Virus record (IMG/VR): IMGVR_UViG_3300025141_000855
Coordinates: 1-22,320 of that record
Direction: 5' to 3' (one strand)
Source of the DNA: a virus
Length of the DNA stretch: 22,320 nucleotides
Positions 13,572-20,845 of the stretch are shown here, piece by piece. Both the position numbers and the translations under genes were made by a program. Within the stretch, counting starts at the first letter, position 1. Each line of letters begins with the position of its first letter. The notes below the pieces were generated by a model. It had not been told where the DNA came from. It did not search any database and was given only the letters and a program-made list of their open reading frames with translations.

Positions 13572-15269
13572 ATGACTTTAATTCCACAATATCCTATTTC
13601 ATTAGCTGAACGCGTGGAGCGATGGCAACACGGTGATCGTGTGCCCTTCATAACACCAGAAGAGTTGCGTGCTATTTTTGAAACAAGGGGTCTAGATTCA
13701 GATACCGGGATGCCCCTCGTCGACACCCATCGAGAGCGCTTCCCAGCGACCGGAAGCCTTCCATATTCGATCGAAGAAATAAGTAAACCCCTGGGAAGCA
13801 ACACCCTATCCTCGCGGCAGATGTTTGAGGAACGTCAAAAGTATAAGGACGTTCCCTATTTTATGAATCTCCCAGATCCCATGGAGTCGTGGTACGACAA
13901 ACTATATTTCGGAAGAGTAGACAGAATTCAGAACGGCATAATAGTCAAGCCTGTGGCAGCCAACTTTAAAGAAATTCCCAGCGAGACAAACAACGTGGTG
14001 GCTTTAAATTTTGTGGCTGACGCTTTCGCAATGTTGCAGCGTTACATGCGTTCTTTCACAGATGCAGGACTCCTTCCTACTGAAAGCGTGTATTATGGAC
14101 TCCAACCGGTAGCGGCATTTAAAGATCCAGTTAAGAGTTTAGAAGCCCATCGTGCAACCTTTGCCGCGGCTTTCACATCTAGAATAAGGAGCACTCCGGC
14201 GATTAATAATAGGGTGTTAGATTTTAAATCTTATGTCAAAGAGCTTCTGAACTTCATGAAGCCCGGGGGTGCTACGATGCCCTTAACAGCAACGGGCTTT
14301 ATGGTATCAAGCTTTTCTGATCCAATGATGTCGGGGTTAAGTATAGAATTGTATAATGGCGACTACGGCGATGATGCGACCAAGTTTAATAAATATATAA
14401 TGGATCCAAATTTTAGATTTTTTGTGAAGGCTGCTCGTAAATTTGGCTTTTATGTTGACCGCAACGCACCGTGGCGATTAATTGCGGACCCCCTCTCGCA
14501 GCCAATGATCGATCGCCAAGGAGCGCTTGACACATCTCTCACATCGACGATGACCTATGACGATCCGTACGGGTCTATGTTTTTTAATAGATATTATGAT
14601 CGCACCTATGAGTTGGATGTCAAGTCGACGGGAGGCTTCCACAGTATTGTCGCGCTGCTCTTCGGCCGTGACTTTACAGATGTTAGTATGCGCAGCGCAT
14701 TAAAAAAGATGTACAATGATTTTGTTACGCAATATCCGCGCCGCAGGATACAAACCACAAGCAGCACAAGGTGCTCACCCGATCGTGCAGCCTGGACGAA
14801 TACCAGATCGCCAATTACTACACAAGAAATCGACGATTTTAAAGAAACGTACTGGCTAAATCTATATTTTCAATTGCGACTACGCGAGGCCAAAGTTAGC
14901 TTTCAAGACTACCACAACAAATTTCAGATGGTAAGGCAGTTATATAAATTTCATGGACCTAATGCGCTAATGGTCGGATCGCTCACTCATGCGCAATTTG
15001 ATGCACTTCTAGGACTGATGTGTTATGGACGTTACGATTCCGGTCCACGTGCTGGTGAGTGGTTCGTGGAGAACCCCGAGGTACGCAGCAGGGCTTGCGA
15101 ACTGATAGGCAATCCCGAAGAATTTCTAAAAGCGCAAGGAACAGAAATGGCCGCGCGGTATATTAATAATGAGATTAAGCCCTACCTATACGATTTGCAA
15201 GTAGGGGCAAAAAAGAAGTTGACACTTGGCACGGGACCTGTTAGAATAGGATCAGTGAAAGACTACTAG
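13572..15269 (+). CDS. Unknown protein at end of the tail module
   Basis: I do not recognise the family of this 565-residue protein. It is soluble, without a signal peptide or membrane segment. It is rich in aromatic residues (many Tyr and Phe), with a likely ordered core from about residue 90 to 500. Notable segments are MTYDDPYGSMFFNRYYDRTY, FHSIVALLFGRDF and a long helix ETYWLNLYFQLRLREAKVSF. The last residues (KKLTLGTGPVRIGSVKDY) are basic and may be a tail or strand. It is the final gene before the replication cluster and follows the hub-like gene by nine bases, so a structural or assembly role (baseplate or neck) is a reasonable inference. Its stop codon overlaps the AGGAGG used by the DNA polymerase gene. 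Confidence 0.6.
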   Translation: MTLIPQYPISLAERVERWQHGDRVPFITPEELRAIFETRGLDSDTGMPLVDTHRERFPATGSLPYSIEEISKPLGSNTLSSRQMFEERQKYKDVPYFMNLPDPMESWYDKLYFGRVDRIQNGIIVKPVAANFKEIPSETNNVVALNFVADAFAMLQRYMRSFTDAGLLPTESVYYGLQPVAAFKDPVKSLEAHRATFAAAFTSRIRSTPAINNRVLDFKSYVKELLNFMKPGGATMPLTATGFMVSSFSDPMMSGLSIELYNGDYGDDATKFNKYIMDPNFRFFVKAARKFGFYVDRNAPWRLIADPLSQPMIDRQGALDTSLTSTMTYDDPYGSMFFNRYYDRTYELDVKSTGGFHSIVALLFGRDFTDVSMRSALKKMYNDFVTQYPRRRIQTTSSTRCSPDRAAWTNTRSPITTQEIDDFKETYWLNLYFQLRLREAKVSFQDYHNKFQMVRQLYKFHGPNALMVGSLTHAQFDALLGLMCYGRYDSGPRAGEWFVENPEVRSRACELIGNPEEFLKAQGTEMAARYINNEIKPYLYDLQVGAKKKLTLGTGPVRIGSVKDY

Positions 15270-15277: not shown

Positions 15278-16474
15278 TTGCATTTTCAGACGCTCGATAA
15301 CAAGGGGGAGTGCCTTGGTTATTATGCCAACAACAAACTTCATTATGAAGAGGTGCCGCATGCAGCAGATAAGACGTGGTATTATTCTCCTGCCTTAAAG
15401 GATCGCTACGTAGAATACGCTCGCATTTACGCAGGAGGCGCAACCCTAACAGAAGCATGCCCAGATGAGTTTAAGTCCGTGTGGGCCAGTGTCACAAAGA
15501 GGCTGCAAGCATTCCTTAAATCTTTTAAGACAGCGCAGGTAAATCTAAACGAGACGTGCATCTACAATATAATTCCAGAGTTCTTTTTATATGAATTGTG
15601 TGATGCAAAGAATAAGATTACGCAGCATGTGTTAGAAAACTATCCTCGACCTGAGAATCATGATTTTTTAGTAGAAGTAATCAAGATGCTCGAAGACATT
15701 AAGAGGCAGCCTTTAAATATAGATATAGACCCTATCATGACAAAGCTTGTGTCGGTGAAAGGAAAAAACTTTATCAAGAAACTCCAAGAGATTAAGTGGG
15801 CATGTGATTACAACCCCTTTGGCACTGTGACGGGGCGCCTAACCACTCACCCCAAAACTTTTCCGATTCTAACCCTCCATCGAGATTTCCGCGGGTGTCT
15901 CCATCCGCAGAATGATTGGTTTCTGGAACTGGATTACAACGCGGCCGAAGTAAGGACGCTCTTAGGACTATCGGAGACTCCACAGCCCGAGGGAGACATC
16001 CACGAGTGGAATATCGAGAATATTTATGACGGAAAAGTCGATCGCCGAGAGGCCAAGCAAAAGATTTTTGAGTGGCTCTATTCTCATCGAGAAAACAAAA
16101 AGGCTGAGGCCTTTTATGATAAGAACCTCGTTAAAGAAAAGTATTGGGATGGCAAAAACATTTACACAGAGTTCGGAAGAACAATAAAAGGGGTTGACGA
16201 CCATCACGCCTTGAGTTATACTGTACAGAGTACAACTAGTGATTTGGTCATGACGAAAGCAATGGAGATTCACAACAAGTTGAAAGAACTAGAAAGCAAC
16301 GTGGCCTTTATGCTACATGATTCGATTGTGATTGACTTGAAGCATGAAGAGCGCCAGATGATCCCAGAACTCATGAAGATGTTTGGGGCAACTCCCTTCG
16401 GAGAGTATAAAGTGAACGTAGCTCTCGGGAAAAACTTCGGAGACATGAAAGATTTAAACATTAATGGGGCGTAA
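15278..16474 (+). CDS. Family A DNA polymerase, polymerase domain only
   Basis: This 398-residue enzyme matches the palm and fingers of E. coli Pol I. Motif A is DYNAAEVR (D219, E224; Pol I D705, E710). Motif B is RREAKQKIFEWLY (R256, K260, F264, Y268; Pol I R754, K758, F762, Y766). Motif C is HDS (H347, D348; Pol I H881, D882). TGRLTTHPKTF upstream and VQSTTSDLVMTKAMEI between B and C also fit. All catalytic residues seem present, so it should be active. Spacing is shorter than in Pol I (A to B about 37 residues rather than 49; B to C about 79 rather than 115). The N-terminal 180 residues show no clear DEDD proofreading motif and no 5' nuclease. The start is TTG with consensus AGGAGG. It probably replicates the phage genome; a 5'-3' exonuclease is encoded separately at 21795. 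Confidence 0.85.
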   Translation: MHFQTLDNKGECLGYYANNKLHYEEVPHAADKTWYYSPALKDRYVEYARIYAGGATLTEACPDEFKSVWASVTKRLQAFLKSFKTAQVNLNETCIYNIIPEFFLYELCDAKNKITQHVLENYPRPENHDFLVEVIKMLEDIKRQPLNIDIDPIMTKLVSVKGKNFIKKLQEIKWACDYNPFGTVTGRLTTHPKTFPILTLHRDFRGCLHPQNDWFLELDYNAAEVRTLLGLSETPQPEGDIHEWNIENIYDGKVDRREAKQKIFEWLYSHRENKKAEAFYDKNLVKEKYWDGKNIYTEFGRTIKGVDDHHALSYTVQSTTSDLVMTKAMEIHNKLKELESNVAFMLHDSIVIDLKHEERQMIPELMKMFGATPFGEYKVNVALGKNFGDMKDLNINGA

Positions 16475-16772
16475 GAAATACAACAAACTCGTACGGGACC
16501 TGATCCCGGAGATCATTGAACAGTCAGGCAAGAAATGCAAGTGGCACAAGGCACAAGACCGAGCAGTCCCGACCTACCTAGGAAAAAAACTTGTGGAAGA
16601 GGCCAAAGAATTCCAGCAGAACCCTTCGAATGAAGAGCTGGCTGACATTATGGAGGTTATTTATACCATTGAAAAGGTGATGGGCCTTAATCGCTACGCG
16701 AAGATGGGGATTAAAGCATATAATCGGGGAACATTTGAAAACCGTATTGTTTTAGATTGGGTTGAGGACTGA
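16464..16772 (+). CDS. MazG-like nucleotide pyrophosphohydrolase
   Basis: This 102-residue all-helical protein starts KKYNKLVRDLIPEIIEQSGK, the classic opening of the small phosphoribosyl-ATP pyrophosphohydrolase-like/MazG family. The metal-binding pattern is visible: EEAKE (E-E-x-x-E) in the second helix and EELAD (E-x-x-D) in the third. Such enzymes hydrolyse nucleoside triphosphates to monophosphate and pyrophosphate; in phages they may alter nucleotide pools or ppGpp signalling. The precise substrate is not visible. The start lies 11 bases inside the end of the polymerase gene, and the stop shares a base with the next ATG (TGATG). This tight overlap argues for co-translation with the polymerase and the tubulin-like protein. 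Confidence 0.82.
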   Translation: MGRKKYNKLVRDLIPEIIEQSGKKCKWHKAQDRAVPTYLGKKLVEEAKEFQQNPSNEELADIMEVIYTIEKVMGLNRYAKMGIKAYNRGTFENRIVLDWVED

Positions 16773-17629
16773 TGAACGTTATAGGTCTAGGCCGCGCAGG
16801 TTGTGCCATCGCAGATTGTTTTTCCAAGTTTCCTCAGTACGATGTGTACAAATTTGATCACAGCATCAAAGGAGATAACTGCTTTAACGTTCCAAAGAAG
16901 AAATCACACGAAGACTATGAAAAAAGCTTCCCAGATTTCAGAAAACGCTTGCAAATGATCTCCGGAGATGTTATATTCGTACTATGCGGGGCAGGAAGTA
17001 TTACCGGAGCCGCTCTGAGGCTCGCAGAGCAGCTCTCAGACGTTTCTGTGACGGTTCTGTATGTCCAGCCCGATCTGGCGATGCTAAGCGAAACTGAGGC
17101 TATGCAGGAGCGCATAGTAAACAACGTACTTCAAGAATATACCCGCTCGGGTGTGTTCGAGCGTATGTATCTGGTCGCGAATACTGAAATTGAAAAGTGC
17201 ATTGGGGACGTCCCAATCATCAGCTACTATGATAGCATCAACCAGGCCATTGTAAACACTCTCCACATGGTGACCGTCTTTAAAAATTCTGAGCCAATTT
17301 TGGGAACTTTTACGGAGCCTCATGAGATTGCTAGGATTTCTACCATCGGTATTGTGGACATAGAAAAAAGTGAAGAAAAATGGTTTTATGACTTGCAAAT
17401 CCCACGTGATGTGGTATACTATTATGGTATCAATGAGGATGATTTGAAGACTGATGGAACACTTTTCAAGACGATTAAAAATTACATCAGAGAGAAAGTG
17501 GAAGAAAAGATCAACGTATCCTATGGAGTGTATAAAACCAACTACAAACAGAAATATTGTTATTGCGTTAAGTACAGTTCTGTGGTACAATTATATATAA
17601 ATGAATTAGACGATCAGGATATTGGCTGA
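16772..17629 (+). CDS. Divergent tubulin/FtsZ-like GTPase
   Basis: The 285 residues align by pattern with the tubulin/FtsZ fold. Residues 3-11 (VIGLGRAGC) match the first strand and T1 loop of FtsZ (VIGVGGGGC-type). Residues 67-84 (VIFVLCGAGSITGAALRL) match the nucleotide-binding signature GGGTGTGAA followed by the helix, with I77 in place of a Gly. A strand with a V-T-V-x-x-V-Q-P pattern (92-100) and the segment ERMYLVANTEI (130-140) fit FtsZ's next strand and its PN(D/E) motif. SYYDSINQAIVNTLHMVTVF (151-170) fits the long central helix. A strand-rich C-terminal domain follows (about 186-285). The GxNxDxxD catalytic T7 motif is not recognisable; E182 and E185 are the nearest acids, so hydrolysis may be weak or altered. 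In giant phages tubulins position DNA; a similar role here is speculation. The start overlaps the MazG-like stop by one base. Confidence 0.68.
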   Translation: MNVIGLGRAGCAIADCFSKFPQYDVYKFDHSIKGDNCFNVPKKKSHEDYEKSFPDFRKRLQMISGDVIFVLCGAGSITGAALRLAEQLSDVSVTVLYVQPDLAMLSETEAMQERIVNNVLQEYTRSGVFERMYLVANTEIEKCIGDVPIISYYDSINQAIVNTLHMVTVFKNSEPILGTFTEPHEIARISTIGIVDIEKSEEKWFYDLQIPRDVVYYYGINEDDLKTDGTLFKTIKNYIREKVEEKINVSYGVYKTNYKQKYCYCVKYSSVVQLYINELDDQDIG

Positions 17630-17633: not shown

Positions 17634-17662
17634 ACTCTAGCCCAACTATGAAAGGAAACAAA

Positions 17663-18445
17663 ATGGGTATTAACTTGGATAAGATGAGAGAGAAGCTGGC
17701 CACCCTTAAGGGCACCGGCGGAGACAGGGACAGCTTTTGGCGTCCCGAAGATGGGAATCAGGACATTCGTATTGTCCCTACTCCCGATGGAGACCCCTTC
17801 AAGGAGAAGTGGTTCCATTACAACCTGGGAAACACACCGGGATTTTTATGTCCCAAACGTAACTACGGCGACGAATGTCCTGTGTGCGAGTTCGCGTCAC
17901 AGCTATGGCGTGATGGGGTAGACAACAATGATGATGGCAGCAAGAAGGTTGCTAAGAGTCTGTTTGTACGACCCCGCTTTTTCTCGCCCGTAATGGTGCG
18001 CGGCGAGGAAGATAAGGGTGTGCGCATCTGGGGCTACGGCAAGATGGCTTATGAAAGTCTTCTTGGTCTCGTGCTCAATCCGGAGTATGGTGATATCACC
18101 GACCCCGAGACAGGCACCGACCTTACTATGACGTATGGCAAGCCTGCCGGCGCGTCGTTCCCGCAGACGAAGCTCGTCCCTCGACGACGTAGCTCAGAAC
18201 TGTGTGAGGATATGACGCCTGATAAGTGTGCAGAACTACTGGATAGCATTCCAGATCTGGAAGGTCTCTTTGAGCGTAAGACGCCCGAAGACGTGGCGTC
18301 ACTGCTTGATACCTTTATGAACTCGGGGATAGAGGACCCCGAAGCGGTTTCGTCCGAAACCCAAAAGTTCGGTGGCTCATCTACGACCACTGACACTGAA
18401 ACAAACGCTGTTGACCAAGCGTTTGCCGAGCTAGGCGCTCTATAA
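17663..18445 (+). CDS. 32: Single-strand DNA-binding protein (T4 gp32-like)
   Basis: This 260-residue ssDNA-binding protein works with the polymerase and recombinase. A gp32-type zinc site is visible: H52-x10-C63-x8-C72-x2-C75, close to T4 gp32's H-x12-C-x9-C-x2-C. The N-terminus has a basic helix (LDKMREKLATLKG) followed by a strand; in T4 this region gives cooperativity. Aromatic residues (FW, WFHY) in the core may stack on DNA. The C-terminus is acidic and low complexity (many Asp, Thr, Glu, Ser) and ends AVDQAFAELGAL, like the tail that binds partners. I chose ATG 17663 over ATG 17648 because AAAGGA (17651-17656) lies six bases before it, the same layout (GAAAGGAAnAAAATG) as the next gene. 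It is followed by the repeated hairpin element. Confidence 0.87.
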   Translation: MGINLDKMREKLATLKGTGGDRDSFWRPEDGNQDIRIVPTPDGDPFKEKWFHYNLGNTPGFLCPKRNYGDECPVCEFASQLWRDGVDNNDDGSKKVAKSLFVRPRFFSPVMVRGEEDKGVRIWGYGKMAYESLLGLVLNPEYGDITDPETGTDLTMTYGKPAGASFPQTKLVPRRRSSELCEDMTPDKCAELLDSIPDLEGLFERKTPEDVASLLDTFMNSGIEDPEAVSSETQKFGGSSTTTDTETNAVDQAFAELGAL

Positions 18446-18519: not shown

Positions 18520-18999
18520 ATGAGTCTAGCAGAAACTTTGAGAAACTTGAATTTGTCAGCCGATGCGGTGGCAGAACTATCATACGAGGCGGGCACTGAT
18601 GTGTTCGTCCATAATGAAACCGATACTGAGGATGGCCTTCGCGAAACGGATACCGCTGAGTATCTCGCGGGCCTTGTAACCACTAAGGGGCTTACAGTCA
18701 CCAGTGGCTACGCCAATGAGGAGGTCTTGCAGGCAATGCGTGATAATGATCTGCTCGACGATTACGACCGCGGCGACTTTGCCTTTGAGGACTTCGTTGC
18801 AGAGGTAATCCGCTCGAGCCACTGGGACCATGAATGGGTAGACGCGAGTACCGAGAAGTATGATTATAAGCGCGGCTTTTGTACGGTTTCAGCCAATGTG
18901 AACGTACCTGTGCAGCAACTAATTGAAAACGAATCAGCAGCCACTGGATGGAAGGTGTCCGTCCAGACAGAGAATGGGACTCTCTGCGTAGACTGCTAA
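18520..18999 (+). CDS. Unknown acidic protein between ssDNA-binding protein and recombinase
   Basis: This 159-residue protein is not recognised. It is acidic throughout the first 120 residues (many Asp and Glu), with an Ala/Leu-rich helix near the N-terminus. The last 50 residues (about 110-159) look ordered and strand rich: a KYDYKRGFCTVSANVNVPV segment, then a helix, then WKVSVQTENGTLCVDC. Three Cys are present (C121, C156, C159). The gene lies between the ssDNA-binding protein and UvsX/RecA genes, and both it and uvsX are preceded by the same 35-base element, so a role in recombination (for example as a mediator like UvsY) is possible, but no sequence motif proves it. The start ATG 18520 has GAAAGGAA upstream, matching the ssDNA-binding protein gene. 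Confidence 0.7.
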   Translation: MSLAETLRNLNLSADAVAELSYEAGTDVFVHNETDTEDGLRETDTAEYLAGLVTTKGLTVTSGYANEEVLQAMRDNDLLDDYDRGDFAFEDFVAEVIRSSHWDHEWVDASTEKYDYKRGFCTVSANVNVPVQQLIENESAATGWKVSVQTENGTLCVDC

Positions 19000-19058: not shown

Positions 19059-20168
19059 ATGGCAAAGTCAAAATCAAAAGTAGGGACAGTATCGATAACC
19101 GATCTGCGTTCCCTTATTAATAAGGCTTCCGGTATGGAAGTCGCATACAATCTCAACGAGGAGAATCCAACCGAAGTTAAGGAATGGATCCCCACTGGAT
19201 CGCGTTGGCTCGATAGTATTATCTGTCGGGGCCACCTCGCAGGTATTCCTGTGGGTAAGATCTCGGAGATCGCTGGTCTAGAATCAACAGGCAAATCTTT
19301 TATGGCGGCACAGATCGCAGGGAACGCGCAGAGCATGGGGATGAATGTAATCTACATGGACGCTGAGTCTGCAATCGATCCGACCTTCTTGGAGCGCGCC
19401 GGCTGCGACTTGGAGACCCTTATTTACGTACAGGTTCAGTCAGTTGAGCAAGTGCTTGAAACTATTGAACAAATCCTCAATAGTGGATCAGAAAGAACCC
19501 TGTTTATTTGGGATTCACTCGCTCTTACCCCGTCGGTTTCAGACGTAGAGGGAGATTTTAACCCCCAATCGTCGATGGCAGTGAAGGCGCGCATCCTAGC
19601 GAAGGGAATGTCCAAGCTGACTATTCCTATTGCCAACAGCCAGTCGACATTCCTAGTCCTGAACCAGTTGAAGACCAACATCACAAGGTTCCCAGCCGAG
19701 GCAATGACCACGCCCTACGTCACACCCGGAGGGAAGGCGATGATTTATGCCTACTCCCTACGCGTGTGGTTAACGGGGCGCAAGGCCAAGGCCAGCTTTG
19801 TTCTGGACGACAACGGCTTCCGAATTGGATCGGAAGTTAAAGTCAAGCTCGAAAAGTCTCGCTTCGGCACACAAGGGCGCAACTGTGCCTTTAAGATTCT
19901 CTGGGGAGAATCCGTCGGTGTGCAAGACGAAGAGTCATGGCTTGAAGCTATCAAGTCTTCGGAGAATCTCAAGCGCGCTGGCGCATGGTATGCCCTGGTA
20001 CACGATGATGGAACCGAAGAGAAGTTTCAGGGGTCTCATTGGGTTGAAAAGCTCGAAGTCGAACGGTTTAGACAACGAGTGTTTGACATCATGGATGAAG
20101 AGATCATTATGAAGTTTGATAACCGCACAGGAAATGCACAGGATCATTACAGTTTAGATAACGAGTGA
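19059..20168 (+). CDS. uvsX: RecA/UvsX-type recombinase
   Basis: This 369-residue ATPase forms filaments on ssDNA and promotes strand exchange in recombination-dependent replication and repair. The Walker A motif is GLESTGKS (residues 73-80, K79, S80). The catalytic Glu is E103 in MDAESAID (RecA E96 in DAEHALD). Walker B is LFIWDS (D152). LNQLKTN (201-207) matches the RecA NQ motif that senses ATP. The L2-like region follows (about 205-225, with TPGGKA). The ATG at 19059 is chosen with GGAGAG (19050-19055) just upstream; a longer reading from 18948 would overlap the previous gene and translate the repeat element, so it is unlikely. It sits after the ssDNA-binding protein gene as in a replication-recombination cluster. 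Confidence 0.92.
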   Translation: MAKSKSKVGTVSITDLRSLINKASGMEVAYNLNEENPTEVKEWIPTGSRWLDSIICRGHLAGIPVGKISEIAGLESTGKSFMAAQIAGNAQSMGMNVIYMDAESAIDPTFLERAGCDLETLIYVQVQSVEQVLETIEQILNSGSERTLFIWDSLALTPSVSDVEGDFNPQSSMAVKARILAKGMSKLTIPIANSQSTFLVLNQLKTNITRFPAEAMTTPYVTPGGKAMIYAYSLRVWLTGRKAKASFVLDDNGFRIGSEVKVKLEKSRFGTQGRNCAFKILWGESVGVQDEESWLEAIKSSENLKRAGAWYALVHDDGTEEKFQGSHWVEKLEVERFRQRVFDIMDEEIIMKFDNRTGNAQDHYSLDNE

Positions 20169-20194: not shown

Positions 20195-20845
20195 ATGAAC
20201 CTATCTAAACACCGGCTACTACAAATCATCAGAGAAGAAATCTCTACTGTGAGAGAGGGAGCCGAAGATGCGTTTGCCGCGCTGGATCGAGAAGCGTCAA
20301 AGTTCGACGCCCAGAAGAAAGCTACCGCGGCGGCAAAGCCCCCAGCCACGACGACACAACCGGTGACTCCGCCAGCAACAGCCGCGCCGGCAACGACGCC
20401 GCCAGCAACAGCCGCGCCGACAACGACGCCGCCAGCAACAGCCGCGCCGGCAACGACGCCGCCAGCAGCTACCGCGCCACCACTATCGCGGGCTGAGGCC
20501 GCGTTCGCCGACTTCGACGCCGAGACCGCGGCCGCAGAGAAAAAGTACGGTGATAACTATAAGGTCCAGACAACATCACAGACACGAGAATCTCTGGAAC
20601 AGACCATTCGAGAAGAGATCGAGGCATATCTCGCCGAAGACGACAACTCCTTCTCCAAAGCAGGAGAAGAGATTGAGAAGAAGGGCACCGAAGGTGTCTT
20701 TACGGCCAAGGCCAAGAAGGCAGGTATGGGTGTCCAAGCATATGCCGACAAGGTTCTCGCCAAGGACAGCAAAGCCAGCACCAAGACTAAGCGTCAGGCT
20801 GCGTTTGCCAAGGGAGCGGCGACGGTGGCACGAGAAAACAAGTAG
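20195..20845 (+). CDS. Unknown protein with MxLSK motif and Pro/Ala/Thr repeats
   Basis: This is a 216-residue protein. It opens MNLSKHRLLQIIREEIS, a short amphipathic helix motif shared with the next two genes. A related segment, ESLEQTIREEIEAYLAE, recurs at residues 132-148. Residues 45-97 form a Pro/Ala/Thr linker made of a 10-residue unit PPATAAPATT, encoded by three near-identical 30-base repeats. Short similar modules AEDAFAALDREA (23-34) and AEAAFADFDAET (100-111) flank the linker, suggesting internal duplication. The C-terminal 55 residues are Lys rich and compact (GVFTAKAKKAGMGVQAYADK), perhaps a nucleic acid or protein binding module. No known function is recognised; virion or scaffold-associated roles are possible. 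AGAGGAAA precedes the ATG. Confidence 0.75.
   Translation: MNLSKHRLLQIIREEISTVREGAEDAFAALDREASKFDAQKKATAAAKPPATTTQPVTPPATAAPATTPPATAAPTTTPPATAAPATTPPAATAPPLSRAEAAFADFDAETAAAEKKYGDNYKVQTTSQTRESLEQTIREEIEAYLAEDDNSFSKAGEEIEKKGTEGVFTAKAKKAGMGVQAYADKVLAKDSKASTKTKRQAAFAKGAATVARENK
20366..20455 (+). repeat. Three tandem 30-base repeats in coding sequence
   Basis: Three 30-base units run from 20366 to 20455, each encoding about ten residues of a Pro/Ala/Thr linker; a fourth, diverged unit starts at 20456. The units differ at only one or two bases each (for example T at 20368 and A at 20420), so the repeat is recent or kept by homogenisation. The length is a multiple of three, so changes in copy number would alter linker length without shifting the frame. 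Confidence 0.9.

Follow-up and report, generated by a model that had tools for sequence, protein, structure and literature searches.

Phage tubulins in the literature that we surveyed (including PMC10299810, PMC13282480 and PMC7824862) come from jumbo phages or plasmid-like phages. PhuZ of the nucleus-forming, phiKZ-type jumbo phages is non-essential in at least some Chimalliviridae. Plasmid TubZ/RepX is required for replication and stability (PMC2875224), providing a precedent for tubulins in replication. Among cellular proteins, FtsZl1 has a genomic context of membrane remodelling, and its T6-H7 elements are unidentifiable (PMC2875224). In S. aureus FtsZ, D210 and D213 of the T7 loop region hold the catalytic water, and mutants at N208, D210 or D213 fail to assemble (PMC8936486). 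The tubulin-like family described below is undescribed in PMC10299810, PMC13282480 and PMC7824862, which deal with other phage tubulins, and an earlier mention elsewhere is possible.

We analysed a 22,320-nt stretch of viral DNA (IMG/VR record IMGVR_UViG_3300025141_000855; hereafter the window) containing an ORF that an initial annotation had read as a tubulin/FtsZ-like gene inside a T4-type replication cluster. The gene order given there, polymerase, MazG-like, tubulin-like, ssDNA-binding protein, unknown and UvsX, was confirmed, with the following features:

15219 to 15247, plus strand: promoter-like TTGACA-17-TAGAAT from a consensus scan alone (11 of 12 matches), 30 nt upstream of the polymerase start
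15278 to 16474, plus strand: short family-A DNA polymerase (PolA) with a TTG start, the near-obligate upstream neighbour (PF00476, E 4e-11)
16464 to 16772, plus strand: candidate MazG-like NTP pyrophosphohydrolase, optional, recognised by eye, with no significant Pfam match
16772 to 17629, plus strand: predicted tubulin/FtsZ-fold protein of 285 aa with an ATG start (AlphaFold2, Foldseek, dN/dS)
17648 to 18445, plus strand: gp32-type ssDNA-binding protein, start maybe at 17663 (PF08804, E 1.5e-13; phrog_1192)
18520 to 18999, plus strand: 159-aa protein of unassigned function, optional, found in 29 of 57 loci
19059 to 20168, plus strand: UvsX/RecA recombinase (PF00154, 2e-37; phrog_97, 4e-57)

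The listed UvsX start at 18948 is probably 37 codons too early; we place the true start at about 19059 because the relatives begin at MAKSKSK. The overlapping starts noted in the initial annotation hold for the polymerase and MazG-like genes (11 nt) and for the MazG-like and tubulin-like genes (1 nt), but not for the gp32 gene, which begins 18-33 nt downstream. The short PolA has no exonuclease domain, and its motif C in the window protein is HDS, not HDE. Further downstream, an ORF of unassigned function at 20195-20845 of the window encodes Pro/Thr/Ala-rich repeats with PPATTAP-like units.

Relatives of the tubulin-like protein are encoded on 386 viral stretches in IMG/VR, on fragments reaching 194-204 kb and with identities down to about 35%. 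In comparison with seven relatives, the nonsynonymous distance of the ORF was 0.025-0.24, and in the five of the seven pairs with finite dS, dS was 0.39-1.6 and dN/dS about 0.07-0.15. These ratios demonstrate strong purifying selection and, together with the 386 stretches, that the ORF is a real gene and not a chance reading frame. Conservation counts below refer to the 49 sequences of the family alignment (A3). About 20 of the 49 members keep an acidic C-terminal tail, DDQDI[GS] (window 17609-17626), which is missing from the others and looks similar to the acidic tip of bacterial SSB.

We counted the neighbours of the tubulin-like gene over distinct loci with enough flanking sequence. A gp32 gene lies within 2 kb downstream in 91 of 91 loci, UvsX follows within 5 kb in 56 of 57, and a short PolA precedes in 82 of 91; distant members retain the minimal order PolA, tubulin-like gene, gp32 and UvsX. 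The MazG-like gene occurs in 69 of 108 loci, overlapping the tubulin-like gene by 4 nt in 49 of those 69. We also scanned in the reverse direction, starting from at least 582 PolA stretches gathered by PolA alignment, of which 80 loci were kept and 76 examined by script. The tubulin-like gene was found downstream in all 73 loci with room for it, 71 by script and two by inspection, where the gene lay beyond the script's distance window. Each of 25 long records has one copy of the gene and no canonical tubulin. Linkage to gp32, to UvsX and, in both directions, to PolA, together with the single copy, establishes the tubulin-like gene as a core replication gene and not an accessory one. The conserved neighbourhood is evidence that the genes are co-expressed and inherited together, but not that their products interact physically. 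The 159-aa neighbour was considered as a TubR-like protein, a role that is not supportable from its weak HTH_53 match (E 0.0045); Pfam gave no TubR-like match in the genes neighbouring the tubulin-like gene.

The phages carrying this gene encode a T4-type portal in all 16 long records, which upholds the T4-type assignment in part; the replication genes themselves depart from it, with a short family-A polymerase, and in 10 of 16 records a bacterial-type PolIII alpha some 1146 aa long (for example G001 L254:699-4136(-)), instead of T4 gp43. Likewise, the smaller T4-like layout proposed initially is accurate in a relative sense only, given the 194-204 kb fragments. A relative of 170,861 bases carries terminase, head protease, DnaB, RNR, GroEL, PhoH, transaldolase and heptose-kinase homologues. 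The UvsX proteins reach no more than about 31% identity to those of cultured phages, and the phages bearing the tubulin-like gene look deeply separated from these. A tmRNA scored above the gathering threshold in 7 of 16 related records, one of them (L260 2873-3191(-)) being a phage tmRNA with the ARAGORN tag ANDADYGLALAA. These tmRNA genes, along with the T4-type portal and the bacterial-type PolIII alpha, show that the hosts are bacterial. The sole match to the family in a cellular genome, L221 (CP070664.1, 2241237-2262037, 'WOR-3 chromosome'), was rejected as a cellular copy. This phage fragment sits between runs of N, so the cluster is most likely a mis-scaffolded phage contig in the WOR-3 MAG and uninformative about the host.

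Sequence searches revealed little about the identity of the protein. The window protein had no significant match in Pfam, PHROGs, NCBIfam or PDB sequences, and searches with the family alignment in the same collections found no significant named family covering the protein. Within Pfam, the strongest signal came from TrkA_N, a model of the NAD-binding Rossmann start that matched 21 of the 49 members (best E 4e-5); Pfam Tubulin matched 4 of 49 (best E 0.0064). No relative was detected by tblastn with four family members among 50,697 cultured-phage records, 179 of them with PhuZ. Profile comparisons from the single sequence gave too weak a signal. When the family was compared by hhalign in local mode, the alignment with eight FtsZ-type proteins ran from T1 to H7 (157 columns; one-to-one E 0.0017, against 0.28 for the reversed control), and that with PhuZ covered the first 97 columns (one-to-one E 2e-4, against 0.026 for the reversed control).

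The AlphaFold2 model of the window protein, computed from the 49-sequence alignment, had a pLDDT of 91.4 and a pTM of 0.90. According to DSSP, it comprises an alternating N-domain, a 23-residue central helix (residues 149-171) and a C-terminal domain, in which the strands span 189-196, 211-221, 248-256 and 262-269 and the helices 222-227 and 231-242. The best Foldseek match in the PDB was FtsZ (8h1o; E 8.1e-12, TM 0.73 over 313 alignment columns, 13% identity), the best 50 matches were FtsZ and TubZ only, and the closest predicted viral structures included proteins annotated as FtsZ or tubulin. A second model, of the relative L218 (36% identical), gave the same fold with a pLDDT of 93.4 and a best Foldseek E of 1.4e-13. 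The tubulin/FtsZ-like identity put forward in the initial annotation thus has strong support from Foldseek comparisons of two independently predicted structures; with both the H7 central helix and the C-terminal domain present, the model is not a plain Rossmann fold. We consider it nearly certain, on these models, that the product of 16772-17629 has a highly divergent tubulin/FtsZ-superfamily fold. The elements of the protein are located as follows:

16784 to 16801, plus strand: T1 phosphate loop, residues 5-10, GLGRAG (GLGxAG), aligned to FtsZ GVGGGG by hhalign
16820 to 16840, plus strand: H1-S2 loop FSKFPQY, with Q22 in 48/49 and Y23 in 49/49, position inferred from the DSSP order
16856 to 16858, plus strand: D29 at the T2 Asp position (FtsZ NTD), 48/49
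16988 to 17008, plus strand: degenerate T4 loop GAGSITG, residues 73-79, G-[AS]-G-x-[IV]-[ST]-[GA] in the family
17132 to 17152, plus strand: invariant H4-S5 segment QEYTRSG, residues 121-127, with Q121, R125 and S126 in 49/49
17180 to 17182, plus strand: N137, the T6 guanine-contact Asn (E. coli FtsZ N165), 48/49
17216 to 17284, plus strand: central helix H7, residues 149-171, with Y153 and N157 (DSSP)
17285 to 17335, plus strand: segment in place of the T7 loop and helix H8, residues 172-188 (DSSP of two models)
17336 to 17590, plus strand: C-terminal tubulin-type domain, residues 189-273 (DSSP, full-length Foldseek alignment)

The nucleotide pocket is in register with T1, T4, T6 and H7 of FtsZ in the hhalign comparison; this residue mapping rests on the sequence register and not on model coordinates. 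In T1, G5, L6 and G7 are found in 49/49 and G10 in 48/49 sequences. On H7, N157 (49/49) is in register with E. coli FtsZ N186, and Y153, four residues ahead of it and Tyr, Phe or Trp in 44/49, with F182; H165 is also invariant (49/49). The T4 motif, GAGSITGAA (residues 73-81), differs from GGGTGTGAA at three positions including I77 for Gly, as had been noted initially. The family does not match the GGGTG(S/T)G signature, its Thr position is variable, and its T2-T4 region is short, without the FtsZ T3 sequence. We did not take this signature as obligatory for the superfamily because phiKZ PhuZ deviates from it too. From the conserved positions of the pocket, the protein is likely to bind a guanine nucleotide.

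Unlike the pocket, the catalytic region of FtsZ seems to have no counterpart. Residues 172-188 form no helix in either model, and across the 49 family sequences they contain no conserved acidic position and no NxDxxD, in agreement with the unrecognisable T7 loop downstream of H7 reported in the initial annotation. The length of this segment is constant in 47/49 members; NxD is present at the T7 position in 7 of the 8 FtsZ-type sequences compared. Because the pocket is conserved and the T7 and H8 features are absent, guanine binding looks kept, whereas canonical T7-loop hydrolysis looks lost. The FSKFPQY and QEYxRSG elements have entropies of 0.92 and 0.99 bits, respectively, versus 1.65 overall, and would lie, by the topology of the model, at the end opposite to the nucleotide site. 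As they are among the most conserved parts of the protein, this suggests a functional surface there.

The apparently retained pocket and the apparently missing GTP-burning loop favour a replication scaffold over a classic moving filament. Our main reading, to which we give a probability of roughly 40%, is that of a divergent tubulin-superfamily core replication gene encoding a nucleotide-bound scaffold without the T7 hydrolysis cycle. The protein would bind GTP or GDP, with the bound nucleotide possibly serving as a structural switch, and could self-assemble or dock to form a scaffold on which phage replication proteins or DNA are brought together, without the canonical T7-loop hydrolysis cycle that powers treadmilling in FtsZ, TubZ and PhuZ. 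Probably, it is not a treadmilling GTPase, and we hold the role of a replication scaffold without canonical hydrolysis tentatively. It is unlikely, if taken in full detail, that the protein is a non-treadmilling, nucleotide-bound part of the replication machine that uses a new FSKFPQY/QEYxRSG face for gathering PolA, gp32 and UvsX on phage DNA. Of the three functions suggested by the initial annotation, the best fit is the nucleotide-dependent scaffold; the protein may position genomes, and there is weak support for interference with host FtsZ.

The strongest competing reading is a dynamic, hydrolysing filament resembling PhuZ or TubZ, with a rearranged catalytic site, which would position or segregate replicating phage genomes. 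Positioning of phage DNA is a known role of phage tubulins (PMC13282480), the predicted fold is the same as in FtsZ and TubZ, and the requirement of plasmid TubZ/RepX for replication and stability is in line with such a role. The loops at both ends of the N-domain are strongly conserved, and the FSKFPQY/QEYxRSG conservation would be equally compatible with subunits that polymerise head to tail and arrange their catalytic residues differently; the T4 loop of phiKZ PhuZ is non-canonical as well. However, the family has neither a conserved T7 acid nor H8, and the short T2-T4 region without FtsZ T3 and the variable T4 Thr also speak against a hydrolysing filament. No TubR-type DNA-binding adaptor was recognised in the cluster, and the phiKZ nuclear shell protein had no match in 16 records in a search run without a positive control. 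We regard this filament as somewhat unlikely.

Alternatively, a monomeric or dimeric guanine-nucleotide sensor could adjust the activity of the polymerase or of the recombination proteins to the nucleotide pools, without any scaffold. Conservation of the pocket with degraded polymer and hydrolysis features would agree with a sensor, as would the MazG-like gene often found directly upstream with its 4-nt overlap, but about a third of the loci have no MazG-like gene, and the conserved loops distant from the nucleotide point to an additional interface with proteins. We consider a pure sensor improbable. It seems very improbable that the protein is a mimic blocking division by capping or poisoning the filaments of host FtsZ. 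The hosts are bacterial, as the tmRNA genes indicate, a subunit with a nucleotide face but without the T7 face could terminate a filament, and FtsZ inhibition is known from other phages (PMC3961180, PMC11897509); the phage FtsZ inhibitors there are, however, small unrelated proteins. Early host-takeover genes are variable, whereas this gene keeps a fixed position in the replication core throughout the clade, and its product shares little with FtsZ (13% identity), making FtsZ interference less likely. Finally, a Rossmann-type nucleotide-binding protein unrelated to tubulins is largely refuted and barely credible: TrkA_N outranks Tubulin in Pfam, but its signal is consistent with a common GxGxxG start, and both models match FtsZ/TubZ over the full-length fold, H7 and C-terminal domain included, the best 50 matches all being of the tubulin superfamily.

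The scaffold without T7 hydrolysis, our preferred reading, would make this family a case from nature in which a tubulin fold seemingly dropped canonical hydrolysis. As a near-obligate core gene of a large, widespread and uncultivated clade of T4-like phages, present on hundreds of contigs and tied to replication genes, the family makes the link between the tubulin fold and DNA replication directly testable.

Compared with FtsZ, the protein shares the whole predicted fold, T1, the T6 Asn, the Asn and aromatic guanine contacts of H7 and the C-terminal domain, but is about 13% identical, has a degenerate T4, lacks the T3 sequence, the T7 NxDxxD, H8 and a long C-terminal tail, and is set in a phage replication operon. 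With PhuZ it has in common a phage-encoded tubulin fold and the departure from GGGTG(S/T)G seen in phiKZ PhuZ. Unlike PhuZ, to which the family has no tblastn-detectable sequence relation, it occurs in phages with a T4-type portal, always within the replication cluster. TubZ/RepX of type III plasmid and phage partition systems shares the tubulin fold and, in plasmids, the link to replication and stability (PMC2875224), whereas our protein is about 100 aa shorter, without a T7 motif or a recognised TubR adaptor. FtsZl1 and FtsZl2 (Makarova and Koonin 2010, PMC2875224) are likewise deep, divergent branches of the FtsZ superfamily, but they are cellular, large and multidomain, and both retain a recognisable GGGTG(S/T)G. 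The closest predicted viral structure, A0A6J5RW92 ('FtsZ cell division GTPase') of an uncultured Caudovirales phage (E 5e-13, TM 0.75), differs in its length of 452 aa, its 16% identity and its annotation as FtsZ. The tubulin-like protein is thus a member of the tubulin/FtsZ superfamily by its predicted fold and pocket, and stands outside both FtsZ and PhuZ by the features examined.
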